Notes under the pieces: model-generated | Told to the model about the DNA's origin: nothing | The model's database searches: none | The model's input: the letters and a program-made list of their open reading frames with translations, nothing else | Shown here: piece after piece, positions 5,189-59,984 of the stretch | Layout of the letters: every line of letters starts with the position of its first letter | How positions within the stretch are numbered: position 1 is the first letter of the stretch | Translations under genes and position numbers: made by a program | NCBI RefSeq assembly: GCF_037126465.1 | Contig: NC_088204.1 | Span: 76,135,807 to 76,199,806, forward strand | DNA: 64,000 nucleotides | Source of the DNA: Ornithodoros turicata | Taxonomy: Eukaryota; Arthropoda; Arachnida; Ixodida; Argasidae | Reading direction: 5' to 3'

Positions 5189-6704
5189 AAGGCGGGAAAG
5201 GGAAACCATGGCGTGACTTTCCCCAATCCAGTGACTCTAAAGTTGCAGAGCCCCCAACAGGTACTGCACGGAGGCTATAGGTGCCACCTATCGGAGAACC
5301 TCTATGTTACAGTAGTGGCCCCTAGAAGTGCTACCTCACCTTATCAGGTAGAAGAAATCAGATATACACCATCATCATCATCATGGCTACAATGGTCTGC
5401 GTATGCCGTGTGGTCTACTGCTTGCTATGCACGGGTAGCCTTGTTCGTCGTCGTTGATATCGCCGCGCTTTGGGAAAATCACGTGATGATATATTTCAGA
5501 AAATCACGGATAATCACACTCACCTGATATAGAGTGTGAACTAGCGCCAAATCCCATAACAAAGCTTAGTTGGCTCGCGACGTAAACACCCAATTATTAT
5601 TATTACCATAACAAAGCGGCGACCGCCGTAACTACTTACTACATACACCTAGGTGCTGGGAGCATTACAAATGACCAATGTCCAGGAAAAGTAGAAACTG
5701 CGTAGTGTGTGGCTTTTCGTGCTGGAAACTCCATCTCCACTTTATTTTTACCAAATTTAATGCAATCTAGCCATGCTATAAACTTTGGTGAAAATGATAA
5801 CCATTGCGGCGAATCGTCGACACTGTGACTAACATTCCACGTGGAGGAAGACGTGCCCGGTCACGTGGTACTACTCTACCAGGTTGCTAAGGAACGTCGT
5901 TCTGGAAGGTGCTTGCGGCACGTTGCCTCTTCCTAGTATACCATTTCCAAGCATATTGGCTGCCAAAAAGCTCACGTTGACTCGAAGCAAACTATGCAGC
6001 AGGGGAAACACCCAAGAATTTGAACCGTGTGCAAAAGACTATGGACACAAGTCAAGTAAGACCATGATGCAGGGCATTGCTGGGCTAGAAAAGGCAGGAA
6101 AACGCGGTGCGGTCGCGTGCATTAGTTCCCCTACTCATCGTCAGGGGGATAAAGAGAGGGGGACGTCGTCTGCTGTGAGCTGAAATGGCAACTTTCCGTC
6201 TGACCAATCACCCTTGACCGCGGTTCGATCCCGTGGGCACGAACTTCCGGTCGGCGAGGGAGGTTTCAAAGGAAAAAAGGAAGAGGACCGCTCACGCGTA
6301 AGTACATACCGTATATTTCGGGTTAGAGCCCACTAGGCTTCGTCGTCCGTATCGAGAGAATTTGTTACCACAGGGAAATAATGTTTTTATCGATGAGAGA
6401 TGGGGTCTTAAAGATAAATGAACAGAGGTTAGACTCTTGCAGCGGGGAAAAAAAAAGCTCATGACGTCACACGGGGCTGTATTTGCTACAGAACGGCGAG
6501 GCGCTGTGGCCCCTTTGGTCATCTTTATTGGGCAGTCACCTTCCCTCGTATGCTATGTCGGAATATTATAGCAGAAAAGGAGAAATAAACTACTCAGGTG
6601 CCATAAGTTCCGCCTCGTGCTATGTTGAGCAATCACGTGGTGCCGGAATATGGAGAGTGCGTACTGCCAACACCACGTAGATCGCTCAAACGACCCGAGA
6701 ACTC

Positions 6705-6761
6705 TCAACTCTACCAAATTGGTGGCTCTGTCGAACACTATGACGTCATTTGTTTACAAAC
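6705..6761 (+). repeat. 57-bp dispersed repeat, copy A
   Basis: TCAACTCTACCAAATTGGTG then GCTCTGTCGAACACTATGAC and a TTTACAAAC end. The same block, about 88% alike, is at 37925-37982. It contains a perfect CRE at 6741. Confidence 0.65.
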
Positions 6762-7480: not shown

Positions 7481-7507
7481 TAGCAGACGACAACCTGTCG
7501 TCTGCTA
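7481..7507. repeat. perfect 12-bp hairpin of the GCAGACGAC motif
   Basis: TAGCAGACGACA, then a 3-nt loop (ACC), then TGTCGTCTGCTA. Stem identity is complete and goes beyond the 9-mer. Just upstream are an ATTGG box and TTACGTCA. Confidence 0.8.
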
Positions 7508-7522
7508 CGGCATATCTTATGG

Positions 7523-7940
7523 ACACGACCTGCTAGGTTATAACGACCATGTCATAACCGGCAACCCCAACGAGGAGCCCGTCCGCAGGATCCGCTAGGG
7601 GCGCTACTCATCGGCCCGCGAGATCTACATCGTGATTGGACGATAGAAATTTGAATTTTGAACGCGCAGAAGCGGACGTACGACTACCGTAGCAGACGAC
7701 AGCTAGCAACAGCTCCTATGAAAACGTGTAGAATGATGATGATAATCAACTTTAGAAAGAAGCCTCCATCGTGACACATCCACCGCTTGGACAAAAATAC
7801 CAAGGAAAGCTAAAGTACAAAGTGTTGCAGAAATTGAGGAAGCAATAACCGGGCCGATGAGCAGCGCCACCGCTAGCTTCCAAATGCGGCGCTGGGAAGG
7901 GGTGCCTATGACATGGTCGTTATAATCTAGTAGGTCGTGC
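7523..7940. repeat. inverted repeat, about 90-bp arms
   Basis: Left arm 7523-7617 and right arm 7851-7940 share, inverted, TTATAACGACCATGTCATA and CTCATCGGCCCG with similar spacing. The loop is about 230 bp and contains a GCAGACGAC at 7692. It is probably a fold-back transposon remnant. Confidence 0.6.
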
Positions 7941-9230
7941 TCATGGCTGCACCGCCGGGGGGATTGCAGTGCACGAAAAGACATGACGCTGAGCGCTTAC
8001 GTGGCAGCAGTTGCTTCGCGGCGCTAACATGAAGTTAAGAAAAAAATACGTGGCAGCAGAAAGCTAGGACGTCTTCCGCCGCAGTATTCTATAGGGAATA
8101 TCGCACGTGTGAACACACGGTTACGTGGGGAAGTTCCTCCACAACGTGGGCAAGTTCACTCGAATTTACGCCGTTACGTTCAGAACTCGTTAATGCTGAG
8201 CAATAAAAGCGCGATTTATTCATACACTTCACGACACCAGTGCGTCTAGAGCGTACCATTATTATCGAACGATTTTATTTATTTATTTTTCTCGTTCTTC
8301 CCCGCAGGAAAGCGAAAGTAACTCTTTCGACTTGCTCATTTCAATACGTCCATCATGAAAGCGGGGGGGAAAACAAAAAAAAAAAAAAGAGAGGAAAAAG
8401 ATGGCTACACCACAACGCACCGCCCCATCGTCTTACCCTTTTTTTTCTTTTTGTTTAAAAGCGGGCGAGAAAGTTTGGACGACGATCGCCCGGGGAGGTA
8501 TCGATCAAAAATGCAAGGAAGGGGGGGAGAACTCCTTATTTCGCGCTCAATAATAAAGGCAATAACGGCCAACAATATTATGAGAAATATGCGCAGGGAG
8601 GGAAGGCGCCCCCCCCCCCCCCTTTTCTCTTTTGGAAACGTCCGTCGAGTGAATTTTTACAGGCTGTCAATAAAGACCTTATTAACATTCAATTTACCGT
8701 CAGCGTTTCGTCTGACAGTTTCGAATTTCCCTTACGCTTCACCCCTCTATAGTTGGAGGTTCTCATTACGAGTTTGCTGAATGGTACGTGCGCTTTGCAG
8801 GGATCCGTTAACCGAGGGTGTCTTCTTTTTTTTACATTTTTTATTTTTTTTACGGTTCGACTTACGTTGTCGGATGGTTTTCTCGTTATTCGAATTTTTA
8901 TTTAGCGTTCGAATTATCCGTGCGCGTTAGTGCGTCGCAATACGCTTTGCAGCCCTAGCTATATTGGCGGCGCGTCGATACGGAGTCCGCTCTGTATAGA
9001 GGCGGCGTTGGAGCTCGGCGAAAACCGGGCGTTTGTGTTTCCGCGCGTTACTTTACACCTCGTGTTTCCATGGAAAAACGCAGATTTTCAGGGAAAGATC
9101 TTCCCGGGAACAGCACCACAAAGGATACCTGTCCCGTCGACCGTTTGACGACCGAAGAGCTCAAGCGGGATTTTTAGAAAAAATCCTACCGGAAACAGCA
9201 CCGCAAAGGGCAATGGCAAGTAAGAGATTT

Positions 9231-11610: not shown

Positions 11611-12667
11611 CACTGCACTACTGCACTGCTCTACTCTCTACCTCCGTAGGTTTAGCTCTCCTGCCTGACCACAATTGCACTCTTCTTTAAACTAAATGTT
11701 TCAGCGAAATTACGTCCGCATAATTTATTGCATTTACGGATTACGACTCCGTTAGTCTGCGGTAACGCAGACGCAATCTCATTATACGTTCCTCTCCAAC
11801 AAGCCTCCTCAAACACTCAAGGTACAAACACCGAAAACGCCCACAAGCAATCCAATCAACAACAAAGTACCCAAAGTACCCGATGCACGTGGTGAGCACC
11901 CTATTACGTACGCGCTTATCGCCCCTCAAATCACGCCTTACTCCATTTCCCTCCTCTAATTTAAAGCGAAGCCATCGTCATCGCCAACGAACGAAAAAAT
12001 AAAAATAAGAACAGAAGAAGGCAAGCAGACGACACGCCACTCCATAATGCATGGAAGCGGCGCTTCAAAAAGAATAACTTTCCTTTCATATCAAAACAGG
12101 CACGAGGGTATTCTGGCACTTTGGTGGCGTTCATTTAGTTAGTGAAAAGAGGACGGGAGAAATGAGGGGGCGCCACCAATTAGTCTAATTGATGCTCTGC
12201 TTTATACCTCGTCTTTTGAGCATTTCTGTCTGACTTTGCGTCCGTGCAAAACCATTTCCTCTCCACGCGAAACAGGAGGTTATGTCTGTGCAGAAACTCC
12301 TGTGTCTGCACATGGTCCAGTACTGTGCAAGTATACATATATGCGTGTTTTTTTTTTTTTAATGCTGGGAGGGCAGTGGTTACAAGGGAAATGAACCTTT
12401 CAGGTGTTATCGATAATCATGTTTGGGCATTTCGACAAGCGACTCAGGCACGAAACAATGCAAGGAGGATTTCACATCAGAGGTAATTTTATTGCCATTG
12501 TGTAAATTTGTATTTGTATTTGTATTTTGTTTGTATAAATAGAAATTAAAGACATAGATGTAAAAGGCGTGGCCCCGACGAGGCCCTTGTACCGGGTCAT
12601 GATGCATTAATCAAATTAATGAAGTGATAGTAACGGTCATTTTTGTTCGAATACGTACTTTGTGGAC

Positions 12668-13575: not shown

Positions 13576-15050
13576 AACTTCAGTCTCTAATTATAATGAC
13601 CTGTTTACGGTACACCGAAGTTGGTCGCCTTCTACAGTCACGGCTGACTGTAGTGCTGGACGGCCGCACGTTCAGTGTGTCAAAAGTACTCTGGCACTGG
13701 CACCACAGTGTAAGGCATCGGCCGTTCTCTGCCGTGGTGAAATTTTTCCATAAGACATTGGTGCAGAGACACAGAGTTTTGAAACTTTGGGTGTTCGTGG
13801 ATTTTGCTATTGAAGTATTTGTGTGTTTTGGTGTCAATACTATGAGGAGTTTACCGTAAGAACACGTTTTCTTCGGAACCATCACCACCACCATCATCAT
13901 CATCGTTAAAAGAGTTTTTCACCAATGTAACTGGCGCAAGTGATGTGCAGTTACTGGCTTCACACTAGTGAAGCCGAAATCTCCATTTTATTTTTTTCTT
14001 TAAAAAAAATCAAATCAATTCTAGAGATGACGTCGAAGAATGAGTTAGGAGTTCGATCCCCACAACGTTGCACTCGGGCAATGAAAATCGGCTTTTTGCC
14101 AAAGCTAATCACGATGCCAAATGGCGGAAATATCCCCAAAACATGCGCACGCGCAGATTCCCCTCTCTCCTATGCCTCAAATTATCTGACGGGAGACCTT
14201 TAAAAAAATGTCATCGTGAAGTTCTAAAAATCGCCACCCTCGAAGTAGGGCGTTATAAAACAAGCAGTACATATATCAGACCTACAATCAAAAGCTGCCT
14301 AATGTTTCCAATAATGCTTCCAGTGACAATAAGTAATGACGATAACTACATTTACATATTATGTCAAGGAAGTGCATTAATGCCACGACGGCCGCTACTC
14401 CACTTCGTCTCGTGATCTTTTTCGAGGTATGAATCTCAGTTGCGGGTCCCCAAAATAACCTTGGCGTTTCCGCGAGGGCTACCCGAATTGAAGCTCCGTC
14501 TGCTGCAGAGCATTCCTGCGTGGCAATGATTCCGCCGACTTCGATATAAGCTAACTGGGTCGTGCGGACAGTGCCAGTGTCAGTGATTGGGCGACTGAGC
14601 TCCTACGAATCCCATATCGTCTGCAAGTTTCTGAAGGAGTTATGTGGACGACGCTGAGGTAAGTGACAGCGTTCTTAGTTGGAGTATAGGGTAATTAACG
14701 TGCGCTGAAATGATGTGGACTAGGAAAAGGTAAATACTATAATATACAGACGGCTCATTAGCTGGTTTCTAATTAAGATTTTGCAGCGAACCCGGATCAT
14801 TAGTAATCCGCAACAAAATTTGTTGAAACGTAACGTTGAAAAAAAAAAAGCGTAGTATTATTTGGCAAGGATGCAGTATCGGCATCATAATCTCCGGCGT
14901 ACATATGCCGTGTATACATACGAGCGACGGAATATTTTAGTGGACGGAAAAGCAAAAAAAAAAATGGTCTACGGGGCGGAAGTTTCGTCGGGTCTGATGT
15001 TGAACATTCGTACAGCGCACGAATATCCGGTGTGGCGTATAGTGAATACG

Positions 15051-15515
15051 TAGCAGACGACACCATCGGCCCCGCTGTCTGCCAATTAACAACTTGTAGT
15101 AACCTGTAATAACTTGTCATGCATCGGCCGACGCAGTCATCGTGATTGATACATAGCAGACGACACCATCGGCCCCGTTGTCTGCCAATTAATAACTTGT
15201 AGTAACCTGTAATAAATTGTCATGCATCGGCCGACGGAGTCATCGTGATTGATACATAGCAGACGTGAATACATAGCAGACGACACCATCGGCCCTAAAA
15301 GCATAGCATGCGTGAATACATAACAGACGATACCATCGGCCCTGCATACATAGCAGACGTGAATACACAGCAGACGACACCATCGGCCTTGCATACATAG
15401 CAGACGTGAATACATAGCAGACGACACCATCGGCTCTGTCGTCATCCAATTAATAACTTGTAGTAACCTGTAATAACTTGTCATGCATCGGCCAACGGAG
15501 TCATCCTGATTGAAC
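15051..15515. repeat. composite tandem array of 103-bp and 47-bp GCAGACGAC-containing units
   Basis: Two head-to-tail 103-bp units begin TAGCAGACGACACCATCGG (15051-15153 and 15154-15256). Next come three 47-bp units (15257-15397), each made of a 17-bp TAGCAGACGTGAATACA part and a 30-bp TAGCAGACGAC part. Then come another 17-bp part (15398-15414) and a last long unit from 15415. Units differ by scattered point changes. Flanks at 15520-15580 resemble 7625-7665 (TTTGAATTTTGAACGC). Confidence 0.85.
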
Positions 15516-16430
15516 AGTGGACATTTGAATTTTAATGTTCAGAACGCGGACACACAGCGGTAACCAATCACAGAAGCGGAGCAGGATATTCTCTGAAGAG
15601 CGTTTTGCGCATCTGCCGCTGGATGAATACTTCCGTGTTCTAATGCAATCGCCGCTATTATTTTCTTTTCATCCGAACGAACTCGCAAATCCTTCCGTAT
15701 CTGTCGTGTTGTTTGCTTTTTTTGTATTTGTTATTCTGTTTGTGCATTAAATGTTTGTAGAAATTATGACACTATCTATATCTATGACACTATCTGTATG
15801 TCGTGACTTCGTGCGTTAATTTGGTGCACCATTTTTACGGGCATGCTCATGTGTCAAAACAACAAAAAATAAAAACTGGATTAGGTTGTATTTTGGATAA
15901 TAAAGTGGAAACATAGGTAAAGAGTTTGGCGACCGCGCTCTTGCTTCGTTAGCCGCAAGTTCACAAATCGCTTACTTGCTCCAAATGCGTCTCATGCACT
16001 AAACGTGATTTTAATAGGTTCGAATAAAGCCACTTAACAACGCATCAAACCGGATGCAACACATTTCCTCGAACAGCCCTCGCCACTTCACCCTCCCTGA
16101 CTCCCGACCCCATGAAAGACATCAGTCCCCTCAATCTTTCTTCAGGCTAACATTCACTGACAAACAACTTTCGCCGACACAGCGGCCTCTACGACTACAC
16201 CCGCCACCATCCTCTCGAAGCAAGAGGAGATACTGCGTCCGCACAGCCTCGACCCCAGATCGCCAATCAATCTAGCCCGTCTGTTACGCTAACGATACTC
16301 TCCACTCCCTTCTCGTCTCTATAAAGTACGTCAAAATGTTACCAGCACCGAACCCCCAAGGGCTCTTCCCTCTTTTTCTTTCCCTTCGAACGCCAGGTGG
16401 TGCCGCGAGCGAACGTATCAGAAACGGAAA

Positions 16431-16462
16431 GCAGACGACACACAGCCGCCGCGTCGTCTGCT
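16431..16462. repeat. inverted pair of GCAGACGAC motifs
   Basis: GCAGACGAC at 16431 and GTCGTCTGC at 16453, with a 13-bp spacer. The stem is 10 bp including flanking bases. Confidence 0.7.
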
Positions 16463-17280
16463 AGAAAAGACGAAGGTTTCGGTTTCCCTCCGACGGCAGC
16501 TTGAAACGCGATCGATGTTAAGGAGATTAACTGCGGGAAAACCGGTTGCTCTGTCTTCTGTTTCGGTTTCTTTGTTCTTCACGGACTTATTTCGGTGTTC
16601 GTCCATCATGAGAGAATATCGTGTGTCCCCGCTGTTCGATCGGAGGCGGTTTCCGGTGTCTTCCGTTCTATTGCGGGACGGGAACAAGTGACGGGTTTAG
16701 AAAAGGCCATCGATACGTGACACTCACTTTGATTTGGTGCAACGTAGGGTTATCTGAGTTTGACACGTCATCTAATGGAAGTAGCGACATTTGCATGTGC
16801 TGCCGGAACAGGATCTGTTGACGAGAGTTAAGAATGTGTACCACGCGAAGCTAAAACTGTCAAATGAATACCTGACCAACGCGTGTTACCTGAAAATGTT
16901 ACAGAAATTAGCGCTGTGGTGTGCATGTTGATCTCGTATTATATAGGTATTATATTACATTAACAAAGCATTTTAGTGTGGGATAAAATCAAAAGAAGGA
17001 AAAGATAACTGACAGAACGTTTCATACATAGCGCAACATCGTGGTTTACACCTCTTGCTTTAAATCGTCTGCGCAATTTTTTATATATGTTTTCAATTAA
17101 GCTATCTAGCTCTACTACCCCAGCACATACAAAAAGTCCCAAAAGAAAGCACTTCAGCAGCTACAACCAACTTCACCTTAAGGATTGTTTGTTGCTACGT
17201 ATTTCCAACACAACGCTCCTATTACAGTCTAGAAAACCTTACACCACTCAAAAAGAAAACCTCATACATCCATCACGCCC

Positions 17281-18685
17281 AAAAAGTAGTTGAAATTCTC
17301 CTTATCCTATCTACCCCTGTCATACGAGCAGTGTTCAGTGTTCATTGAAATCAATAACCATTGAACCAGTGCCGTGTATGCCAAAGGGAGTCTGGCCATT
17401 AGGAGGAGCCTAAAAAAGGGGCTCGACCTGTCAATCAAATTGAGCGTTTTTCATTGGCTGCTGTTTTCTTTGCGGGCCGCCATCACACCAAAATTTTCCC
17501 GAAAATGGCGGCGTAGCTTGGAACGGCGAAGCGAGGATTTCATGACAATGTTTTTTCCACAAATTACGTCAATTTTATTCCGTAAGTGTACATTCTGTTA
17601 CAATTATCTTGCAAATCACCTTTAAATTACGCTCCAGTGTCGATGTTTACCTGAAAATAATATGTTTCGTCGTCCTTGTTAGGCCTAGTAACGACAGCGA
17701 TCACATTCAAATAGCGAGAAAAACGCTACAAATGGCCAAAAATTTTCATTTTATGACATACTTTTATTCATATACACACCTTTGCCCGTTCTTGGTTCAG
17801 TCTTGTTATGTTTTATAGTTGAAATACGTATAATACCGGCAGTCTGTTCCAACTAGCGGTTCTGCCGGCCAATCAGTTCTGCTACTTCTGCCTTCTGCTA
17901 TTCTACGTCTTCCCGGCGTGCCCCTCACCATCCAGATGGCGCCGTTAAAAGTGGACGCAAAATCCATTATGTTGTTAGGTCGTCAGGGAATATCCTATTC
18001 AATCTAATCCAATCCAGTTTCCCGAAAATGTCGGCACCCAATTAATACAGGTAATATATAGCTTGGATAGCCTGGGGTTAATAGCGAACTGTATTTTGGC
18101 TCGTGATTGGCCAGAGAGCTCAAAAAGTGGGTGGAGCTCCAGGTATAGGCATGTTCCATTAATGGCCAGACTCCCTTTGGCATACACGGCTCTGCATTGA
18201 ACATGCTCGAAGCGCCACAAAGTGTGCAACATGCCAACCTGTCATGGAGCATTAGATCCAATGCTGTTTGAGAAGTTGACACGTCATACGCTTGGTGACG
18301 CTTCGAGCATGTTCAATGTAGGGTGCCTCAATACTAACTCCGTCTGCATGGGGTGAAGACAACCGCGTCGTCTGCTACGAATTTCCGCCATATTGACTCC
18401 CACGCACACTTCGCGATACGCTCACAAAAGTGTAGCGACACACTGCATGTTACAGTTGAGTAAATTCGTAGCAAAGTAGGTTTGAAAAAGTTGGCGATAT
18501 CCGTACACAACGTCCATGCGTGGTAAGCGTGGGGGTCAATATGGCGGCATTCGCTTCTACAAAGGGTGACTCCACGCTACACAGAGTGAGCACCCTAGTT
18601 CAATGGCGATTGATTTCAATGAGCGTTCAACACTGCCCGTACGACAGGGGCAGTAGAGGATATAGGAAGAATTTCACTATTTTTT
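17281..18685. mobile_element. nested inverted-repeat (fold-back) element, 1.4 kb
   Basis: Outer arms 17281-17366 and 18598-18685 are inverted copies, about 80% alike by eye. Inside them, 17370-17405 pairs with 18155-18192 (both contain GGGAGTCTGGCCATTA or its inverse), 18186-18206 pairs with 18299-18318 (CATTGAACATGCTCGAAGCG), and 18378-18402 pairs with 18527-18551 (CCGCCATATTGAC). No transposase ORF. A GTCGTCTGC motif is at 18367. Confidence 0.65.
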
Positions 18686-19229
18686 GAGCGCAAACATTGA
18701 GAAAGTCTCATTAGCTGTAATTCAATTTCACCAGTGACGACCCCATCTTTCAACTGCCGTGCATTCCTTTCTTTCTTACTTTTCTCTCTCTTCGTCCTTT
18801 ACGCACGAAGCCTTTTAAGAAAATGATCCTCTCCTATCAGATACTATACATTCTTCGTGCACGTTTTTCTTGTCGCCTCGGGTTTTTCTTATGGATCTTT
18901 GGCGCCCAACTTCGCATGCTTTTTAACTATTCTTTCATCCTTATGTATCGTATTACATTTGCCGGATAAACACATTCTTGTCCTTCTCGCTCTCGTTGTC
19001 AGGGTTCCTTGTTGATTTTGGCACGTACCTTCTTGTTCGTTATCGTCTGTTCTTATTCTGCTCCTTCGGCGTAACAGTTAGCAGACATCGATTCTCGATG
19101 GGAGACACGGATGGGAAGCGGAATACGACGCATCTGTTGCGTCAGGCGACACGGATACCGACACAGAGTTTGCACACTTCCTTCCTTCTTTATTGCTCAA
19201 TCACGCTTTGCTCCCGACTGATGTCGACA

Positions 19230-19283
19230 AAGCAGACGACAGCTCCGTCGTCTGCTTCAGGCAATGTTCGAAATGTCGTCTGC
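19230..19283. repeat. inverted pair plus third copy of GCAGACGAC
   Basis: AAGCAGACGAC and GTCGTCTGCTT form an 11-bp stem with a 6-nt loop (19231-19256). Another GTCGTCTGC is at 19275. Confidence 0.75.
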
Positions 19284-21033
19284 TTTGAATATGGCGTGGA
19301 CGGAGTCCTCTTGCGCTAGTACTAAGCAACAAAAGAAAAAACTGAAAAGAAATTTCTACGATTCTATGGCTGGAAGTTAACAATAATGGCCTCAAGAATA
19401 GCTGCAGGTAAGAAGAAATGGAAGAAAAAACAGGTCAGAAATTAGGCTGCATCTAATGCTTTACGACAACATGAAATCGCACCCGTTGTCGAAGCAGAAA
19501 AGAAAAACGACTTGGCTCTTTGCAGAGTTTCAGACACTCTGTAAATTCTGCGCCAAAGTTCAACTTCAATGTTAATCCCCCACTGGATGAACGTTGTAGC
19601 ATCAAGTCAACAACTACATGGGGAATCCCCTGGAATTTCACGCAGCCGTGGAATCAATCTACCAATATTGGCGTCCAGTCAGAATATTCCAACTATCTGC
19701 TGCAAAGCTGTGAATTATCTGGCATTGTTTCCTTGTGCAGCCATTTCCGGCTTACCCGTAACTGCATTCCCCGCAAGACTCCTTGTCCCGTCTACGTCGT
19801 CGTGAACCAGCTTGCGATCATTGGTTGTGTGTTCACTTGAAACTGAACTTGTTATCCGTATCCACAAATGGAGTTCGGGAAACAAAGTTCCAGTATACTA
19901 GTGTCATTCTGATTCACTTATCCGGAAAAATGTCATGTTGTCCGTGCTGGGCGTTTGCTGGGCATTGTCCCGGTGCAGCGTCAGCTCCCCGGGAACCTTC
20001 TGCTTTAGTCTTTGATCCCCTTTTGCTCAGAAGTCTCTTACTGGATACTGGTGATTACGGACAGTAGTAATGGCTCCGTTGACGCGCAAGATGTGCCCGA
20101 TTTCCACAGGGCACAAGAGGTCGATATGCGAGCGTCGGATAGACAAGCCCAATGAAAGTATATCTTGCGTTCAAGCCCCGTATAAAGCAAACACCTTCTA
20201 GATAACAAAAGGCTTCTGTACTCTTTCTATTTACGTCACGCCATTATGGTCCTGCTGTGGCTGTTGGGGAGATGTGACGTCACCGAATGAGCGAAGGAGA
20301 GAAAAGCTGACTCACTGAAAATGCATGGCGGCCGGACCAGATGCGTGACGTTTTTGAGAGTGTGCCGAGGCATCACCACCTATATAGATAGAGAAAGCCC
20401 GCTCACTCGTCGACGTGACGTAACAACTAAGAGTCAGCCAATCAGGATCGTGTTTTCAACGGCCGTAGCCAATCACGAACGTGCTCTCAACGGTCGTAAC
20501 CACGGAGACGAACTACCGTCGTCTGCGAGTAGTGCTTGAACTTCTTCGCGTACTAAATGGGAAAAAACTTCAAAATAAAGCGCAAAACGGACCCATATAT
20601 CCTTCTCAAAAGCGTGTTACACGAGTTATCTACATATTCTAGTCTACAGGTTATAAGTTAGGTGCAATCGTTGCGAACTCTTGAATTCGCAGAACGGCGA
20701 GTCGCAGCAGTAGCAGACGAATTCTGACCTCATATGTCCACGTAGTGAAGAAGGGAGAGGAGGCAATAAGCAGGCCTTATGTATCGAGGTGGGCGTTGGC
20801 CGAGGCCTTCTGTTATCGGGAAGGGGTTGATAAAGTGCGCTGGATGTTGATAACGGAACGTCGACGATCTGTGACAAACTGTAGGAAAAAGAGAAGTGGC
20901 GATCCAGTGATCCAGCAGATTGTCAGGCACACTTCTGTCACACGTCTCAGAAACGCCCAACGACTTGGAACGGTCCACTTTCGAAGGCGTTCTAAGACAA
21001 CGTGTCCCAGAACACAAGCTTGTTCTCTTTCTC

Positions 21034-21056
21034 TTCCTCTCTCTCTCTCTCTCTTT
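21034..21056 (+). repeat. (CT)n microsatellite
   Basis: Pure CT run. A matching (GA)n run is at 22019-22047. Confidence 0.9.
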
Positions 21057-22609
21057 CTGAGCAATTAACATATTTAATGAAATCGTCCGCCTCCTCTCGC
21101 TTGATTCGCTTATCCAAGAATTCGTTATCCAGACGATATGTGGCGACAACCGAGGTGTCCGGATAAAGAACGCATTTAGGCTCGACGTGGTAGCGGGCAC
21201 GTCAACAAAAATCAAAGAATGAACAAATACGAGGAATATCCGTGCACTATTTTTCGGTGAACTTTCCGCGAGCGTGTCAAAAACGCAGGGGAAAAAAAAA
21301 GAACCTCGTAGCCCTTGTAGACAACTGTAATGAACAGCGGGGATAAGGACGTAGAGGGCGCCACCAGGGGACAACCTTTTTTTGTGTTTGCGAAGCGAGT
21401 GCCGTACGTCGTTACCTTTCCTTTCCCCGTTTGTCTTTCCCTCTCTCTTTAAAATTCCGACCGCGTAGTCCGAGACAAAGTCCGCTACGAGGAAATGTAT
21501 CCTGCGACAACTTTCTAGCCAAGACAAGACGGATCACCGGGGCGCACTCCAACTCAAACAAAGGCTAGCACTCAGGCACGCACAAAGCCGGTCACTAGCG
21601 AGCGAACAAAAAACACTTCCAGCGAGGCAAACAAAAAAAAAAAAAAAAGGCGGCCAGTAGCAAAAAAGTAAAGAAAGAGCCAAAACTTTAAGAAATGCTG
21701 ATCCAAGGCGTCTCGACGGAGACACTTCAAGATGATTGGTTCGTCGGGGTTCCCACGGAGGCACTGGCGCATCGCCTCTGCGCACAGCCTAAACCGCGAG
21801 TTTATTTTCCTCCGGAATAAAATTGATGCATTTTGAGTGCGAAAGATATAGTGGCCACCGACCTCGGCTCTCCGAAACTTCTCCACCTAACGCAACCAAA
21901 ACCAATCGTGGAAAAGAACAATACATCAAGGCGAGATAGGAAGGTCGTACTAAAACAGAGCCCATATAAAAAAAGGATGCACCGAGAAATATCTAGCACT
22001 GCCGAGCCTACGGGGTAAAGAGAGAGAGAGAGATAGAGAGAGAGAGGGTGGGTGGAGGGAAAGGAGGCACGAAGAGGATGGCGGGAGGCATCATCTATCT
22101 TAGAGCTGACAACTCCGTTCAACGACCATAATGCGGAAAAGTAGGAAAAGAACCCTTAGAAGAACGCCACACAATGTTACGCTCTGCGTGATATTATGAG
22201 GTGCTTTAAAGGGGTTGTGATGCTTCGATAATTATGGGGCATTACATCCCGAAAGAATTGCACTGCACGCCAGGAGTAGCTATATTCTTTTTCTACACGT
22301 CGTAGTTTGCGATATAAAACCCCTGGAACAAACTTCGCTCTCCAGCTCTGGCATCGGAGGAGCGCGGGCCTCGCCCATTCCTACTGGTTCCCGTAAGCAC
22401 GTGATCTCTCCCACAGACGCCTCACTAGCCGAAGAATGACGTCACATTGGGATATAAATATCGGAATCGTTCCCGCTTAACTCCGGAACAGAAACTCCGG
22501 GGTCTTCCAATGACCGATACAGGCACAGATGTCAATTTGTCCGCGGCGTAAAACATTGTTTTGTGGCTAGGACTTCAATATTTCGCAAAACATTCATAAG
22601 CTACAAATA

Positions 22610-22780
22610 TCACACAACAGAATACTGCTGACAGTCGATGAGAATCTGCTGGACGGTACTTGGGGTATTACAGAAAGGGCATTGCATTGTGTTACTGTAA
22701 CCCAGCTTGTGGAGGAACGTGACCGAGAACTCTTGGAAAGCAAGGGTGGTGCATGCAGCGTACGGCCTCGTGAACTTCTC
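22610..22780 (-). mobile_element. LINE RNase H/C-terminal fragment
   Basis: The minus-strand frame encodes FLHKLGYSNTMQCPFCNTPS, then TVQQILIDCQQYS, the HRxG...CPxC...HxLxxCxxY tail of a LINE pol. The rest of the element is not present. Confidence 0.6.
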
Positions 22781-23192
22781 CCACTTCCAGTTTTCTTTCT
22801 TTCTTTTTTTTTTCGCGAACACCAACACTACTTCTGTTTTCCGGGACCGATTGCCACTCACTTAGGAGTGCTAACTCCTGCGCTTTTCAAAACTAGGGCA
22901 ACTCGGAATTGAGCTCCTACTCGCAAAGCGGAATTTGCACTGCAGAGCGGCAAGAATGAGAGGAAGATGCGAAGTCAGGGGTTTCCAAGGTCTGTAGAAA
23001 ACAAACAAGGTCTGTTCAAACAAACTTTGAAAGTGTGTCAAGGACAGTGTGAACCATGGTCGGTGTATTATTTGCCGTGCCCATTTTCCACGCGCCCGTT
23101 GCAACTTTGATGCAAAACTTGGAATTTAGGCGCACACCGATGCAAATTTCGCTTACATTTACGTACGGAAGTAACCACGACTTCGGAATGCG

Positions 23193-23287
23193 ACTTACGC
23201 ATACTAACCCCCTCATCCATCTCCATCTGTCCAGATCTGTACGCCGCTCATAGGCACAGTTGCTTCGCGGCGCTAACACGAAATAAA
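23193..23287 (+). mobile_element. 5'-truncated SINE, AAGCAACTG-tail subfamily
   Basis: Matches the 3' part of the inverse of 40620-40862, ending AGTTGCTTCGCGGCGCTAAC then ACGAAATAAAAAA. The head is missing. Confidence 0.65.
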
Positions 23288-24108
23288 AAACTTTTTCATT
23301 GAAACGACAAGAAAAAAAAACGCTTTTAACATTTCCTTTTCCTAGCTTCTGCTGATAAGGGCAGTATGGTTGCGTTGCCGCGCAAAGTTATCCGAAAAAA
23401 GAGCGAGAAGGAAACAGGAAGGGCTGGAAGACCGTTTTTCTTCCGCCGCATCTTGTATTTACTTCCCGGAAAACTTAGCTCGGTCGACAATTCGCGCGCC
23501 TCGAAACCACGTTTTTCGGTATTTCAGCTACTAACAAAGCTGTATGGAATGCATTTTACGATGCAATTGGGTAAATTCGACGTGCGCTTTCTGTTTCTGT
23601 AAAAAATAAAGCGTGAGGTCGACTTTGCGAATTTCGAAGCCCAATTGGGAAAATTCAATTTCTCGAAGAATTAAATTTGACAAAAGTGCTCAGAAGTAAT
23701 GGCAAAATCTCCTCCGATATAATTAGAGTTAACGCCATAATGTTCAGAAAAATAGATTTTTTAACAGGTTTCTTTTTTCTTTTTTTACGTTCGGTAAAAC
23801 ACCCTGTACGTACACCCAGCGAAATGAGGGAGAGAAGGTCTAGGAGGCATTGGCAGTACGAGGATCATCTACATAAAATGGCTACCGCTCCTAGAGACGT
23901 CAATGCCCACCTCGCTTTGGAGCATTTTCTAACGCCTGGAGGCATGTTTCACCGCTATACCAGGTTATGATGCAGCCAAAGCACGCTTTACAGGACACGT
24001 ATTTCATCCACACCTACGGCATGTATGTATCGGCATCCCCGTTGAGACTGGGTGGTGACCCCTGTTTTAACTGCACCCGCTATACCGTCTTGGTGGTCTC
24101 GTTGTCGT

Positions 24109-40862: not shown

Positions 40863-40864
40863 CA

Positions 40865-42027
40865 AAGTGAAAACTATATGCGCCAATAGCGAAGGTGCTA
40901 ACTCAAAATGTGCGGACGCAAGAGGACGTATCCTTCTCATCAACAGCAAGATCAATCATAATATCGCGCACGACTTTATTTGTGCTGAAATCTGTGGCGC
41001 AATGTTGAAAAATTATAGGAAATCTTTGGTGACATAGAATATGGCATAAATGCAGGCAAGCAGGATGACATATCCACGAAGCCTGAGCTTGGGCCACGTG
41101 GCTTGGGCACATAAAATATAGGACCACGACACGACTCCAACAGTTCAACTTGAGCCCAAGTTCAGGCTTCCTCAATCGTGAAATCCTTGGTGACAATATA
41201 AGAGACAGGCTTATCACAAACTAGGATGACGCGGTTTTTTTTTTTTTTGGACGGCGAAACGCTACAACGGGTAACGTCAGCAGAAACAAAAAGGCGCCGC
41301 CTCTAAATGTCAGAGGTTCAATGAAAAATTGCTAAATCTCCTAGAGTAGTTTCTTGACGCGGAACAGCCCCAACCTACGTGAACTGCTTTAAATTCGCTC
41401 GCGGCTAATCCAATTAGTAGTGTAGGCTCTCCGTATGTGTCGGCACCTTATAAGAGAGCAACACAATCATGATCCGAGCATTACGTAGATACATCACTTG
41501 CCGGATCATTAACGCTTCATACCCTTTCTTTCATTTTTCTCGCTTTTTCTTTCGCACTTCTTCTTCCTTTCTTTTTTTTTGCGTAACAATCGATAACTCT
41601 TTCGAATTTCCATCTTCTCTCTCTCTCCATTTTTCCTAAGAACTTAATGACCAGACCTCCAAAGTTAATTCGCTCGCAACTATAGCGTTGCTTCAAAGAT
41701 AACGAAGGAGTAACTCCGAGTAACATGGTTGCCAAACGGCTGGTATAATACGCGAGCTTTTTGAACGTCTCAGCTCGCTCTAAATAATTAGTAACAATCC
41801 ACTAGTGAATCTTCTTTCTCTTTGTTATTATCGCTTCTTTCTTGTTTTTTTTTTATGGAGTAACAAGTCGACCTTGCGTTTGACTGACCTTTCCGTTTGG
41901 CATGTTTCACTTCCGAATAAACACTCCCTTTTTTCCCTCTCTCTATCTCTCTTTTTTCGTGAGACTTAATATGATGTGCATGGTTCAGTCGCGGAGATAC
42001 AGCGAGGCTTTCTGTAGTAATTTCTAC
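40865..42027. other. nothing recognised
   Basis: T-rich and mixed sequence with no ORF over 105 codons, ending at the hAT MITE target duplication. Confidence 0.55.
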
Positions 42028-42035
42028 GTTCTAAA

Positions 42036-42323
42036 CAGAGCCGTAGCGAGGCAAGTTTGCGCCCAGGGCAGGGTAAATCTGTAGCGCCCCCCCCCCCACC
42101 CCACCCCACCCTCCCACTGCCGTCAGAAGCCCCGTAAACAAAGAAATGAAAACGCTTATTTACACTGCCGAGATCGTTAATTCAAATTCTCTTCGTTGCC
42201 GTTTTATCCTGTCCAACCAACAACCAGCCAGGGCCTGCCGCTCTTGAGCCCTCCCTTGCGAGGGTGCCCAGGGCGGCTGCCCCCCCCCCCCTCTCGCCCC
42301 CACCCCCCGTCGCTACGGCTCTG
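42036..42323. mobile_element. hAT-type MITE with 8-bp target duplication
   Basis: Termini are CAGAGCCGTAGCGAGG and the inverse of CGTCGCTACGGCTCTG. The 8-bp GTTCTAAA is repeated exactly at 42028-42035 and 42324-42331. At 288 bp with no ORF, it is a non-autonomous element. Two long C tracts lie inside each end. It sits 90 bp left of the LTR element. Confidence 0.88.
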
Positions 42324-42412
42324 GTTCTAAAGAGCCGTTCAAAGTTGAAATCTTTAAATATAGGTGAAAACAGTAGCAAGTTAGTGAGGAATATGATGAA
42401 ACGCTGTGGAGC

Positions 42413-42560
42413 TGTAGTGCTAGAGGCACAAGACAGTACACAGACGTGAGGAAAGGCCGGCCAGCCGAACAACGGCCCGAGCTGGCTGTGCAGTCGTGTT
42501 TTATTACCCGCGCGCCTTGATCATTGGTGCGCGGGGGATGATGATGACGATGCTGCTACA
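42413..42560 (-). repeat. 3' LTR of the gypsy element
   Basis: 148 bp, TG...CA ended, identical by eye to 43291-43438. It contains a minus-strand AATAAA signal beside an inverted GC-rich hairpin (CCCGCGC...GCGCGGG) and a short GATGAT run at its right edge. Confidence 0.9.
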
Positions 42561-42571
42561 GGGCTCCCCCC

Positions 42572-43249
42572 CTAGCGAGTGGCCGGAAGGTAATGAGCGA
42601 TGTGGAGGTGTGGTGCCCAGGAAACTCGGGGGCGAGGGTGCATTTGCGGTTGTTGCGGCGGGCAGCAGGACTGGAGGGGGGGTCGATGGGGAGGGCTAGT
42701 GGGATTGCCAAGTTCCAGGTCCGGAGAAACACCGATGGAGCAAGCGTTGGATGTTTCTTGAGGGGCCTCGAGGAAAGCTGGCTTGAGACGTTCCAGCGCG
42801 ACAGTTTGTTCTCGGCCGCTGACCAGGATGGTGTAGTGGGTGGAGGCTCTGTGCTGTACGGCGTGAGGACCAGAGTAGGGTTGTTGCAAGGGTTTCCTCA
42901 CGGCGTCGCACCGAAGGAAAACATGCGAGCATGTTTCGAGGGCGGGGTGCTGGAAACCGGTGGCAATGCGTGGTGTGCGGGTGGGGCTGGGACGAAGAGC
43001 ATTCATCGTGTCTCGTAGGCGGGACACATAGCCGGCTGGTGGTACGGCTGCGGGGTTCGCTGCGGCAGAGATGAGGTCGCCGGGGAGTCGCAATGAGGTT
43101 CCATAGACCAACTCGGCTGTTGAGCAACCCAAGTCGGGTTTGAAAGCCGATCGGATCCCGAGAAGGACAATGGGGAGAACTTCGGTCCACGGGACTTGAG
43201 GCGACGCCCGGAGGGCGGCTTTTAGCTGACGGTGAAGCCGCTCCACCAT
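42572..43249 (-). pseudogene. Ty3/gypsy integrase C-terminal fragment
   Basis: The 225-codon minus-strand ORF starts MVERLHRQLKAALRASPQVP and continues VLLGIRSAFKPDLGCSTAEL and VYGTSLRLPGDL, which is the end of the gypsy integrase core and the region after it. The later segment YTILVSGREQTVALERLKPA matches the tail that follows the GPY/F module. The catalytic DDE residues lie upstream in intact elements and are absent. The frame stays open to about 30 bp from the primer-binding site, so the deletion joined the leader to the integrase end. The stop overlaps the polypurine tract. Confidence 0.85.
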
Positions 43250-43290
43250 GCCAGGGTTGGGATTGTTCGAGAAATTGTTCGGGTCACCAA

Positions 43291-43438
43291 TGTAGTGCTA
43301 GAGGCACAAGACAGTACACAGACGTGAGGAAAGGCCGGCCAGCCGAACAACGGCCCGAGCTGGCTGTGCAGTCGTGTTTTATTACCCGCGCGCCTTGATC
43401 ATTGGTGCGCGGGGGATGATGATGACGATGCTGCTACA
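43291..43438 (-). repeat. 5' LTR of the gypsy element
   Basis: Second 148-bp LTR copy, abutting the primer-binding site on its inner side and the GAGC target duplication on its outer side. LTR identity implies a young insertion, or gene conversion between the ends. Confidence 0.9.
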
Positions 43439-43955
43439 GAGCGAGACACACCACATCACACGCTGTCGGAGATGCACTTCCGTTTATTCGAACCTAATTG
43501 ACGCGAACGATTCAAATTCGACGATACCGTCCGCTAAAAAGCGCTCGAGATTTATGAACGGCTGTGAACGGCATCAAAAGCTTGACGGGTAGCATTAACT
43601 GTCTTAAAGAGACAAACATATTCAAATGTTTACGTACAGTGTACAAACTACAGGGGAACACTGTTGTCTTTTAATACGTAATAACAACAACAACGACAAC
43701 AAAAAAAGCGTCTGGTTCCTACGCCCACCTGGCGTTTCCGAAACACATTAACGTTGACGCCGCTTTTCATCGCGGCGACACTTCCACGGCTAAAACCCTT
43801 TTCACTTTTTTTTATAGCTACTTATATTTATGGGCTAAATAAGCTTGTACTTGTACAGAAGCGGCGGTAATTAACGGAATACGAAAACTTGGAAGACACA
43901 GATTGGACGACACCAGCCGTATCTTTCAACCAGACTTCACTTGCTGAAACACAGA

Positions 43956-44108
43956 CCCAAGCAGCACAATGTACTGAAAGTCGAGTGCAATAGGAGTGGA
44001 CGGTATGTGTCTTATCAATGTTCCTTAGTTTCAAGAGTCTGTTCAAGGTCTTCCACCTACCCGTCCACCCCTATTGCACTCGACTTTCAGTACATTGTGC
44101 CGCTCGGG
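43956..44108. mobile_element. fold-back MITE 'CCCAAGCAGCAC', copy 2 (upstream of chaoptin)
   Basis: A 153-bp copy almost identical to 35660-35812, about 650 bp upstream of the chaoptin start codon. The right terminus has decayed to GTGCCGCTCGGG. Confidence 0.85.
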
Positions 44109-44752
44109 GACACACTATGATACAACGAGACAACCTTCAAGAAAGGCGGCGGACATCACTCGCCCTATTGGCTGCAATTATCAAAATGATAAAGCACTTT
44201 ATGAACGAGCGAGCGAGTGAGTGAGTGAGTGAATAACGATATATATGTACCGACCCGCCCATTTGTTAACAAGTAGCTAAGTAAGCTTTAACTATCAACT
44301 AATTACTCACATCCCTCACAAATCGGCCACATGCAATGCAACATTACTAGAAGTGTTAGAAGAATAGGGGGCAAAAACGTGAGCTCTATGACGCGCGCGG
44401 CGACCTCTCCCGGCACGTAATAAAAGAAGGTTTTCATAACGCATTCTGCCTACTAGCCCGCTTGCACAGTCCCTTTATGCTCAACATAATAACGTGTTAC
44501 TAGTGCTTGGATCGTTAAATGTGAAAAAGCTCATCTGGGCGCAATGCATTTCGACATCGGAGTTGTCGGAGTTGTGGAGTTTCCCCTGTTGGGGAAAATC
44601 TGGCTTTTCATGGCCCCTTCACTCATCTACAATTACTTCGTGATCGCTACTTATCATTGCTATTGTGGAACACCACCCACAACACAGATTCTTCATTATC
44701 AAATTCTGCTTTTTTTTTCTACTTATCAACAACTTCCTGCTTTCTGTTTCAG
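44109..44752 (+). other. upstream region of the chaoptin-like gene, read as intron or 5' region
   Basis: It ends in a strong 3' splice site (pyrimidine tract and TTTCTGTTTCAG). It contains a (GAGT)n run at 44210-44231. No 5' exon or core promoter could be assigned; the first exon may be further left. Confidence 0.5.
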
Positions 44753-44759
44753 ATTCACG

Positions 44760-53700: not shown

Positions 53701-56700
53701 AAATAAATAGACTTATGAGCTCTTCGTCTTGTGACTGATGAACCTCGTGGCGAACTCAACCTGGAGCGAGCAACACCGGCAGGCACGGAGGGACAGAATC
53801 CCAGCGAAAATAATAATAGTAATAGTTATTTGATCACACGAGTGATTGGAAGCAGATACAAAAAGTCACCTTTCGTGACATGACGAGGCATCTGCTCCCA
53901 TACAGTAGCAGCACACTCAAACTCGTATCAAGATAACAACAAACCATTTTTAAAGATACATAGCACATCGGCAAGGCAGTAGAAAACAATTTTAGTTTTA
54001 ATTGGAGAAGTATTTTCTAACCAATCTTTTGGAGGGCTTTAGCGGATCAACATTGTTGAGCAAAGTATGGAGTGTATCAGTCTTTGTTCACCATATGTTG
54101 TTCTACGCTTTGGAGTAATCCAGGTTAGTTAGCGGGTGGCGATGAAAATATGTGTAAGCAGATCGTGACAGATTGGCTATCTCAAAGAAGGTTGTGTTAG
54201 TTTCAAAAGTTGCTTTTCTATAGGTCAGTGACAATCTATATTGGTACATGCGATGGAAAAACAACGACGTTTCGGCTAAAGGCTTGGCGGAAGTCGTCGC
54301 CCACATCCATCAGCAAACTGAACTCGCTGTTGCTCGGCCTCGCAAGTAACCCGGAAGTGACGAGAGTAATCCGAGCTCTCTCTCTCGGCAAAGCAAGAAA
54401 GAGAGCACCGTCGCGGAGCGACTTCATATCAAACGACTATCGAAACAATCCAATCCGGATCGACTAGTTAGAAGTGGAGTAGCTGTGTAGTAACCCTGGA
54501 GTAGCCAGTCCCGAATGGCTCGAGACTACCATCTCCATTTTTTCTTTTAAAATCAATCAATCAGTAAGAAAGAAAAAAAAAAGTCGCTCCAGATAGATCA
54601 TTTGAATTCGCCACCGTGTCTGCAATGGAGGACAGAGAGCATCCAGAATGGGGAAGCTCTGAATATGAAAAAAAAAAGAAAGAAAAGTGCTTCCGTTAGT
54701 CACCGAAGAACCCCCGAATAACGCTTTTTTTTTCTTTTTTCTTTTTTGTAGGAGAACACGTATTCTTACAATGAGCATGTCTCTTATACGCGTAATAAAC
54801 GCAGATCCAGCACATACACATCTACGGCTCCAAGCTCAATCACCTGACAGCGGATACCCTGACGGGATTACATCCTCACGGACCGTTCACCTTACGGCTC
54901 GGTCCAACGGGTCTGAAGAATCTACCCACGGCCCTGGTGCACCAACTGTACGGCCTGCCTTGGCTTACGCTGGACCTGACCGACAACGAGCATCTCAGTA
55001 CCGTGCAAGACGAAGAGGAAAGCGAAGAGAACGATGAAACAGCGGGAGATAAGGAACAGGAAGAAGATAAGAAACGTTGGAAACGACTGCCGGGGCACAG
55101 GCTACTGGGTGAGAGCAGTCATTCATTTTACGTATCTTTTATCGCTGTCGATCGTAATGACTGGCCACGTTTGTCTAAAAGAGATGTCCTATAGTCGAAG
55201 GATATCGGGAAATGAGCGCCTATCGTTTTTTTTTTTCTTAAAAAAAGAAAGTGACATTTGCAGAAATACGCTACGACAGTAAGTCTCTGCGCACGAGAGA
55301 AAGAAAAGGTTGGTGGTGGCGGTGGTAGTGATCGTGAAAGGGTTCACCGTTGTCGGCCTCGCAGAGGTGGGCAACGTCACGACTGACGCCCTGGGGGAAT
55401 GTGCGTCCTGGGCCGACTTCTAAGGGAATTGTGCCCCGACATATGTTTGAAAGCGTCTGAGGAAAAACCCAGGAAAAGGTTGGGGTGGGGGGAGAGGAGT
55501 AATGGCAGGATTGGCTCGCCGTTGTTGGCCACACAGACGTGAGCGTCGTCACGACGATAGCAAAAAAAAAAAAAAAACGGATGGAGGATAGAGGATGAAG
55601 GGTGGAGATGCGTAGAGGGTGCATGAGTTCGTCGGGGAGAGCAAAGTGTTAGAGGGGTCGTTGAGCACGTGACAAAGCGTCTGTCCACTCATAAAACAGC
55701 AATCAGGGGCCATTCGCAGACAGGCCACAGCACTATGCTGAAAAGGGTGAAGCAATGTGGTGGTGGAGCTTCTGAAAGCGCTCGCCGTTGTCGGTCTCAC
55801 AGAGGTGGGCAACGTCACGACTAACGCTCTAGGGCCGACTTCTAAGGGAACTGTGCCGACACACCTGAGGAAAACCCCCAGACAGCACAGCCGGCACCGG
55901 GATTCGAACCCGGGTACCTCCCGGTCTCGACGCGACATGGCCAGCACACTAACCACTTGGTCACGCGAGCTGGTGAAGCAATGCGGACCTCGCTTGCGGT
56001 TGCTGTACCTTATTTGAGAGCGGTCCAATGAGACCGTTCTACGTGCACGAGGGGAAAGGGGGAAAGCTGAGAGGACACATCGCCTTGGAAAATTGCACCA
56101 ATACGCGAAAAGAAACACCTTAGGGAGAAAATTCCCGTAAATCACAGCGTACCAAAATACATTATCATGAATGTGGAGACTTTATTTATCTGCACTGTGT
56201 CACGTGGTTTTGCTTTTCCGTGATAAAAAAAATACAAACGACTGCATGAATGGTCCTGTGAGCCTTGTTCCAAACCACGTATAGCTGTTGAACCTCCCTA
56301 CAACCACGGTTTCTACGCATCCTGAATGTCACGAGCATATAACAATTTCCCCCTACTGCGTGCCTGGGGTGCCTATCCCCTGCCAGAAGCAGAACTGAAA
56401 CTCCCCCTCCCCCAAAACTTCCCCAGGCAACAACCCAACATCCCATTATAAAAGGGGGGCGAGAAAATATAATAGGAAAGACCCAATCGGATGCGAAAGT
56501 GAAGTCTCGCAGAAAGCTTGAACGCCGTTAATCGCAACGTAATACGAAGCAGACGACAGGAAGGAAAGTGGGGGCGCTGCGAGCGCGTGACCGTGCATAT
56601 CGTTAGTGCTCAGACGACGCTTGATTTACAGTGTCTCAAAGGCTTTTTGCGCGACACAATTTCCCCCCCACCTGATCAACATGCAAGAAAAGCGGCGCCT

Positions 56701-59022: not shown

Positions 59023-59984
59023 TGAAACACAAGATGGTGCCGTGTTGTGATTTCTTCCATATGGACCAAGTTGAGTTTCATACAGACGGCTGTCAGCATC
59101 GTGGACGATACTTGGGACGTTGCCAGACGAGAACTCGTTCGTTCCAGCAACAAGAAAACGTTGGGTGTACATCGCTAACGCCTTGTCTGAAAAGCTTCGA
59201 TGCAGCTTTGTGAACCTTACCGTGCATTCACACGGAGGACATCCTCACGGAAGATTCTAGTGGAAGGAAAAGCGAAAACACTGCTCACAGAGCCCAAGTT
59301 CCGTTCCGTCCCATCCCATGTTATGTCCAGCATTCACACGGTGCCATTCATATAGCAGACGACACCGTCAATTCATATAGCAGACGACACCGTCAGCGTC
59401 CTTTCCTGTCGTCTGCTACGAAATATCTTGTGGCTGTGTCGCAGGATATTCCCCACGGTTAGCAGTGTACGTGAAGACACGACGCTGAGTGCTCGCGCTC
59501 ACGTGATAGCAGAAAGCTATGACGTGTTCTTTTTTTCCTTTTCTTTTTTTTTTTTTGCATTTTCCGCTGTATTCTGGGGAGTGTCCTTCGTGTGAATACA
59601 CGGTTACTGAAAGGTGACGAGAAATCTCGCGTGTTACTTACGAAAGTGAAGCTATGTATCGCACGTGCGACAGATGCGCTGAAGTCGTATACTAGTGAAC
59701 GCGGCGAACGCCTTCGCTATCGTGGAGAATGTGTTATTTTGTGGAGAATTCAACCTAAGAACCGCATCTCGGGTGCCGAAGGAGAACTTTATGACAAGTT
59801 CTTATTACATTTAAGTATGAAAATAACTTCGCTGTACGTAAATATGACTGAATAATGCGCTAGAGAGCTACACAACGTTGTATGCAAATAGACATTTTTA
59901 AGTACGTACTTCTTATCAAGCTCTATTGTAAGTTGTTGGCTTGATGATGATGGGGCAACTTCGCCAATCATCCTGACGGTCACC
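59023..59984. other. 3' flank of the chaoptin-like gene
   Basis: Holds the three GCAGACGAC motifs at 59355-59416. No AATAAA is apparent in the first 700 bp after the stop, so the 3' end is not placed. Confidence 0.5.
59353..59418. repeat. three GCAGACGAC motifs, two direct and one inverted
   Basis: Copies at 59355 and 59380 are direct 25-bp repeats (TATAGCAGACGACACCGTCA), and GTCGTCTGCTA at 59408 is inverted. They lie about 330 bp after the chaoptin stop codon. Confidence 0.75.

Follow-up and report, generated by a model that had tools for sequence, protein, structure and literature searches.

The nine-base word GCAGACGAC occurs 29 times on the two strands of a 64-kb stretch of Ornithodoros turicata DNA (64,000 nucleotides, referred to below as the window), where 0.43 copies are expected by chance. 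The real unit is 12 bp long, W-A-GCAGACGAC-R or 5'-WAGCAGACGACR-3', and has sharp edges. We give an even chance to the reading that these units are strict recognition sites of a putative DNA-binding protein, which tandem duplication and the movement of an old MITE family have helped to disperse.

Copy number, consensus and near-copies of the word

Each of the 29 positions listed in the first-pass annotation proved to be an exact match, with 19 sites on the plus strand and 10 on the minus strand (0.45 copies per kb). The chance level was taken from 100 dinucleotide shuffles (mean 0.43, standard deviation 0.71, maximum 3). The decamer AGCAGACGAC is present in 27 copies against 0.18 expected under a third-order Markov model; once a low-complexity filter is applied, no other 10-mer of the window is more strongly over-represented. 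Such over-representation of both words is what a sequence-specific protein-binding site would display. The two bases that precede GCAGACGAC are TA in 15 of the 29 cases, AA in nine, CA in three and others in two, in line with the earlier remark that a flanking TA is common. When the sites are grouped into clusters, 12 of the 14 fall in the first 34.5 kb (p=0.014, for a boundary that was set after the data had been inspected). This grouping into 14 was used for the tests of homology, CpG content, inverted repeats, and consensus and position, and a grouping into 16 (150 bp) for the co-localisation tests.

The consensus was determined on 23 of the 29 sites, leaving out tandem or homologous copies: four of the five copies of an array at 15 kb (15156, 15276, 15370 and 15417), one member of the tandem pair at 59 kb (59380) and the site at 59408, which is homologous to that at 7497. 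The remaining 23 are still partly dependent, as 15053 and 59355 were both kept despite their related flanks. Of the 23 sites, 21 have an A at position 0 (p 1.3e-10), and 19 of these 21 carry A or T immediately before it, at position -1 (p 3e-4); a purine occupies position +10 in 22 of the 23 (p 3e-6). Elsewhere within 30 bp on either side p did not fall below 0.02, with a value of 0.038 at position -2. The 23 sites thus combine a sharp consensus with unrelated flanks, apart from the pair 15053/59355, as would be expected of a protein-binding site.

Near-copies of the word are few. The 30 one-mismatch neighbours of AGCAGACGAC together account for six copies in the 64-kb window against 4.6 expected, and the changed position is 1 in two of them, 2 in one, 5 in one and 10 in two; changes at positions 3, 4, 6, 7, 8 or 9, CpG transitions included, were not found. 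Five of the six (20518, 20712, 28372, 28395 and 28601) lie beside exact sites or beside each other, and two of these decamers, 20518 and 28372, are also counted among the 29 exact nine-mers. Neutral decay of 10% would have left about 35 neighbours around 27 copies (p=2.6e-9 for six or fewer) or 28 around 21 copies (p=5.9e-7), and decay of 5% would have left 19 around 27 copies (p=5.8e-4). A decay of 2%, with 10.2 neighbours expected, is compatible with the observed six (p=0.12). The count of two-mismatch copies is 57, where at least 53 are expected, and four of them (15258, 15322, 15352 and 15399) are located in the 15-kb array. The missing halo of near-copies implies that the word is constrained, or else that the copies are young despite their unlike flanks; we know of no mechanism that places bare 12-bp units. 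The missing halo alone is no proof of selection, because a halo is likewise absent around other 10-mers that are over-represented in the window. Those words may stem from young repeats, one candidate being a 150-bp element with copies at 35.7, 44.0 and 61.2 kb.

Arrangement of the sites

The sites and their immediate context are as follows.

6164..6174, minus strand: single site (cacAGCAGACGACg), exact match
7481..7507: convergent pair of 10-mers at 7482 (plus) and 7497 (minus), spacer 5, exact matches
7691..7701, plus strand: single site within a second inverted-repeat element (arms 7519-7556 / 7907-7944)
12024..12034, plus strand: single site whose surroundings (300 bp) show no homology to the rest of the window
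14908..15513, plus strand: five exact sites (15053-15425) in the tandem array of a MITE relative
16430..16462: convergent pair with a spacer of 13, without homology to the rest of the window
18367..18376, minus strand: single site adjoining a 30-nt inverted repeat (18385-18414 / 18518-18547)
19231..19285: three sites, a convergent pair (spacer 6) and a third
20518..20721: site with C at position 0 at 20518 (minus) and one-mismatch site at 20712 (plus), in a region related to 7.2-7.4 kb
25592..25602, plus strand: single site without homology to the rest of the window
28372..28632: three exact nine-mers (28373, 28415, 28623) and two more decamers with one mismatch (28395, 28601), without homology to the rest of the window
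31838..32050, plus strand: three sites in the same orientation, the middle one between CCAAT and TATAAA
33982..33991, minus strand: single site in a candidate element bounded by 14-nt inverted arms (33831 / 34317), for which the script scored no target-site duplication
56548..56558, plus strand: single site in a later intron of a chaoptin-like gene
59220..59603: sites at 59355 (plus), 59380 (plus) and 59408 (minus) inside a MITE-like element

Exact neighbours of opposite orientation that are at most 50 bp apart face each other in all five cases, with spacers between the nine-mers of 5, 13, 6, 33 and 19. The exact opposite pairs that are 195 and 208 bp apart are divergent, as is the pair 20518/20712 (194 bp, the second being a one-mismatch site); these wide pairs are too few to interpret. 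Five convergent pairs are predicted to fold as hairpins of 10-12 bp (-15.9 to -19.0 kcal/mol), where one of the five stems is formed by the one-mismatch decamer 28395 and the site at 28415. Since the pairing stops at the edge of the word or one base beyond it, with the exception of one isolated inner pair at 16.4 kb, the convergent pairs are not long inverted arms. A perfect 14-nt inverted repeat at 19228-19287 likewise consists mostly of the word itself. A pattern scan also found a convergent pair of decamers in six viral contigs, which we take as chance or phage palindromes.

Position relative to a chaoptin-like gene

The long ORF at 44.5-47.8 kb is 100% identical, over 96% of the query, to an Ornithodoros turicata protein named chaoptin-like. 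The gene was mapped from protein matches and splice letters only, rather than from transcripts, and starts as follows.

14642..14658, plus strand: first coding exon (MWTTL, 17 bases, donor GTAAGT), placed by protein match and splice letters
14659..44752, plus strand: first intron, about 30 kb, with 20 of the 29 sites, all in its first 19.4 kb

The second exon begins at 44753, and later exons are located near 52.07, 54.9-55.1 and 58.69-59.02 kb. Besides the 20 sites in the first intron (15053-33982), five are found upstream of the first coding exon and one in a later intron, and three follow the stop codon at a distance of 333-394 bp. The absence of copies between 34 and 56 kb, which had been reported before, was confirmed, and the "long exon" described there is the chaoptin-like exon at 44.75-47.76 kb.

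The site-free second part of intron 1 contains a reverse-transcriptase fragment (RVT_1 in ORF 38787-39140, E 4.8e-10) and a minus-strand ORF, 42575-43297, that resembles a Gypsy integrase by eye; neither this ORF nor ORF 39091-39768 matched a Pfam family. The Pfam search covered the 107 ORFs of at least 100 aa, drawn from 473 ORFs of at least 60 aa minus those starting at 44493-47762, and returned one RVT_1 and one marginal RPA43_OB (E 0.0087), with neither a transposase nor a neighbouring gene among them. The Gypsy-integrase-like ORF is flanked by a 152-base direct repeat (42413-42564 / 43291-43442, 99%), which may represent a pair of short LTRs or have arisen by tandem duplication. A 208-base inverted repeat (57697-57902 / 58139-58342, 82% identical) is located in the last intron of the gene, and a tRNA match (Rfam RF00005, 36.8 bits) is found on the minus strand at 3531-3590.

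A MITE-like element and its relatives

Part of the sites are carried by an element at 59 kb and by its relatives.

59220..59603, plus strand: MITE-like element, arms 59219-59241 / 59582-59604 (23 nt, 91% complementary)
7944..8124, plus strand: right-hand portion of a copy related to the 59-kb element (83% identity over aligned bases, 86 gap columns excluded)
14908..15513, plus strand: MITE relative with left end at 14908 and a tandem array (periods 103 and 47)

MITEs of the PIF/Harbinger-like type are characterized by terminal inverted repeats and a 3-bp target-site duplication, TWA. The 59-kb element possesses such inverted ends and is bordered on both sides, directly outside CCGTG...CACGG, by TTA (seen by eye), features that suggest a PIF/Harbinger-like MITE. 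TTA also follows the right end of the relative at 7.9-8.1 kb, which reads ...CACACGG up to 8120. Immediately before the left end at 14908 the sequence is ATG, so that no duplication is seen there. Our script scored no target-site duplication for any inverted-repeat candidate that holds a site, in the case of the 59-kb element because its ends had been set one base further out.

The element is dispersed within the window. An nhmmer search with the 59-kb copy, the word being left in the query, returned relatives at 14926-15099 (E 8.3e-9), 7944-8124 (E 7.7e-7) and 6557-6734 (E 2.8e-4), the last of which lacks the word. The relatives are 75-83% identical over aligned bases, with 60-86 gap columns per pair excluded. 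Three sites belong to the 59-kb element, where in this one complete copy they are interior and away from the ends; five lie in or adjoin the 15-kb relative, and one or two lie in the 7-kb relative. The latter is interrupted by the second inverted-repeat element (7519-7944, 38-nt arms, 89%) that holds the site at 7692, and the right site of the 7.5-kb pair with its flank has 26 of 29 bases in common with the site at 59408. The two sites that can be aligned between MITE copies are exact, in stretches that were met via the word and hence do not constitute a blind test. In the 15-kb array, with its five exact sites and four two-mismatch copies, the word appears by eye to be kept no better than the bases that follow it.

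Self-BLAST of the window with the word masked revealed colinear homology of 7966-8124 with 59462-59607 and of 14927-14958 with 59247-59278, as well as homology of 7628-7677 with 15502-15551 and, on the opposite strand, of 7189-7432 with 20800-20411. A global alignment of 7.4-8.1 kb with 59.3-59.7 kb left the sites unaligned and was replaced by piecewise alignment. The plain claim that all flanks are unrelated was therefore rejected, given the MITE relatives that the masked search brought out. The view of the first-pass annotation that the surroundings differ holds for most sites, with the exceptions of the homology of 59.2-59.6 kb with 14.9-15.1, 7.5 and 7.9-8.1 kb and of 7.2-7.4 kb with 20.4-20.8 kb. 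For nine of the 14 clusters no homology elsewhere in the window was detected within 300 bp, in a search that sees only repeats with a second copy in the 64 kb; at this scope a single transposon consensus would not account for all copies. The near-total collapse of the flanks into one transposon, which had been named as the outcome that would speak against a regulatory role, was not observed within the window. Repeat coverage within the window is 10.9% near the sites and 7.7% elsewhere. Nine of the 29 sites, in four of the 14 clusters, start inside an inverted-repeat candidate, and such candidates make up 9.5% of the bases (the script's tally of three of 14 counts only the first site of each cluster).

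No protein relatives were found for the translated 15-kb array, a 20-mer of that array had no match in the viral and genome contigs searched, and two translated ORFs from transposon-like regions yielded no matching locus. The element of about 150 bp mentioned above has three copies (35659-35820, 43955-44108 and 61172-61303) that match each other on both strands at 71-98%, and it probably represents another palindromic MITE family.

A putative binding protein and the signals near its sites

We propose that a putative sequence-specific protein of the tick recognises WAGCAGACGACR and would tolerate almost no change of the inner bases. Its sites would occur alone or in small groups in non-coding DNA before the chaoptin-like gene, inside it (mainly in the first intron) and just after it, with close opposite sites facing each other, as in the five pairs described above. 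Part of the set would have been carried by the old PIF/Harbinger-like MITE family and then multiplied by tandem duplication, whereas for most remaining clusters nothing homologous was detected in the rest of the window. The first-pass annotation had suggested a binding site for an abundant protein; binding by a putative protein of this kind is favoured by the sharp 12-bp consensus and the missing halo. The nine clusters without homology in the window and the exactness of the two alignable MITE sites also speak for it, as do the uncorrected CpG and TGACGT results given below. Against it stand the two-mismatch copies of the 15-kb array, the relative at 6.5 kb that lacks the word, and the want of a clear co-localisation with promoter signals. 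The word contains three GNN triplets, GCA-GAC-GAC, which we assume would suit a C2H2 zinc-finger array, and the candidate protein is perhaps a zinc-finger protein. The effect is likely to be regulatory or architectural, i.e. that of an enhancer, silencer or insulator, and what is observed comprises the enrichment, the consensus, the missing halo, the MITE copies and the gene map, whereas the binding protein, selection on the word and any influence on transcription are inferred.

With the word masked, the observed/expected ratio of CpG is 1.26 near the sites versus 1.09 (p=0.009, uncorrected), and the GC fraction is 0.487 versus 0.464 (p 0.054). Co-localisation with 21 motifs at three distances (63 uncorrected tests, 400 shifts each) gave p<0.05 in six tests, where about three are expected by chance: TGACGT at 150 and 300 bp, GCCATNTT at 60, CATCGGCC at 150 and 300, and GGGCGC at 150. 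The lowest value was obtained for TGACGT, which is found within 150 bp of eight of the 16 clusters versus 3.7 expected (p=0.007); CATCGGCC is part of the 15-kb array. For CCAAT, TATAAA, TCAGTY, CACGTG, the full CRE and ATTGGCTG co-localisation with the sites gave p>0.1 throughout, and for GAAAC p=0.073. The TATA and CCAAT motifs that bracket the site at 31914 do not recur in that order in a fixed way. With six of 63 uncorrected tests against about three by chance, the case for a promoter element, which had also been suggested, is weak. Two words are over-represented window-wide, GTGACGTCA (10 copies versus 0.9) and ATTGGCTG (11 versus 1.9); these are CRE-like/CCAAT-like words with no clear tie to the sites.

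Alternative explanations

As the examination covered one window, the main rival is a word that is intrinsic to the mobile elements, where it would serve the transposase or the promoter of the element as an internal or subterminal motif common to several MITE families, with solitary copies residing in elements too decayed or too diverse to be recognised within a single window. We consider this quite possible. The inverted ends and bordering TTA of the 59-kb element agree with it, as do the word-bearing relatives at 14.9-15.5 and 7.5-8.1 kb, the further inverted-repeat structures around 7692 and beside 18367, the share of sites that start in inverted-repeat candidates, and the arms at 7495 and 19228, which are largely the word itself; a divergence as low as 2% would fit the halo count. 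Elements that are 17-25% apart should nevertheless have left many one-mismatch copies, of which there are almost none, the relative at 6.5 kb is devoid of the word, nine of the 14 clusters lack homology in the window, and the script scored no target-site duplication on site-enclosing candidates, the TTA at 59 kb having been read by eye with the end placed at CCGTG. In CACTA elements such as En/Spm, unrelated sequence separates the direct and inverted copies of a short subterminal transposase-binding motif, and the direct arrays and convergent pairs of the tick word are of a similar kind. Unlike those motifs, the tick word is interior in one complete element and is also found where no element was detected. 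The earlier suggestion of a conserved end of a decayed transposon is thus supported in part: some sites lie in copies of the MITE family, but in the one complete element they are interior rather than terminal.

Two further explanations concern the scale and the level at which the word would act. A density of 0.45 copies per kb and the location of 12 of the 14 clusters in the first 34.5 kb (with its boundary chosen post hoc) could point to a recruitment element confined to one region or chromosome and bound by a zinc-finger protein, comparable to the pairing centres of C. elegans or to a site of X recruitment; a similarly strict 12-bp motif has been described for HIM-8 and the ZIM proteins (PMC7140621). 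Nothing at the locus provides a link to meiosis or to a sex chromosome, and we regard such an element as unlikely. In a related form, which we consider rather unlikely, WAGCAGACGACR would be the recruitment word of a putative architectural protein of the soft tick, one that labels either part of a chromosome or the entire chromosome (of the pairing-centre, dosage-compensation or insulator type), seeded by MITEs and kept near-exact by selection. It is very improbable that the sites act in RNA, with the convergent pairs forming their 10-12 bp hairpins in the primary transcript: the predicted folding energies and the 20 intronic sites would suit such a role, but several clusters consist of a single site, both orientations are present (19 plus, 10 minus), and five sites precede the first coding exon, in DNA whose transcription would have to be assumed.

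Comparison with known systems

If the units are indeed recognition sites of a binding protein, they have a close parallel in the Brassicaceae, where E2F sites have been amplified by MITEs; about 85% of those sites lie in TEs, and the protein is known (PMC12595863). As in the tick, a site of about 10 bp occurs many times over, and some of its copies reside within PIF/Harbinger-like MITEs, whereas nine of the 14 tick clusters lack homology in the window and the tick protein is putative. The pairing-centre motifs of C. elegans offer a second parallel, since a specific 12-bp motif is repeated regionally and is bound by the C2H2 zinc-finger proteins HIM-8 and ZIM (PMC7140621); the tick word, also a 12-bp motif repeated in a region, is known from one 64-kb window. 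The literature matches listed contained no description of the word as a motif, and a search that combined Ixodes scapularis, ATAC-seq, motif and enhancer gave no match. If the word is found genome-wide and is constrained, it would provide a handle on a major DNA-binding protein of ticks; if it travels with MITEs, it would be an arthropod case of transposons that spread binding sites.

SMAD sites contain CAGAC, and the silencer element bound by Mad, Medea and Schnurri in Drosophila has a fixed 5-bp spacing. Such a fixed spacing was not seen by eye in the tick pairs. The tick word shares CAGAC with the SMAD sites and also contains GACGAC, and over its 10-12 bp it seems to be stricter than SMAD sites.
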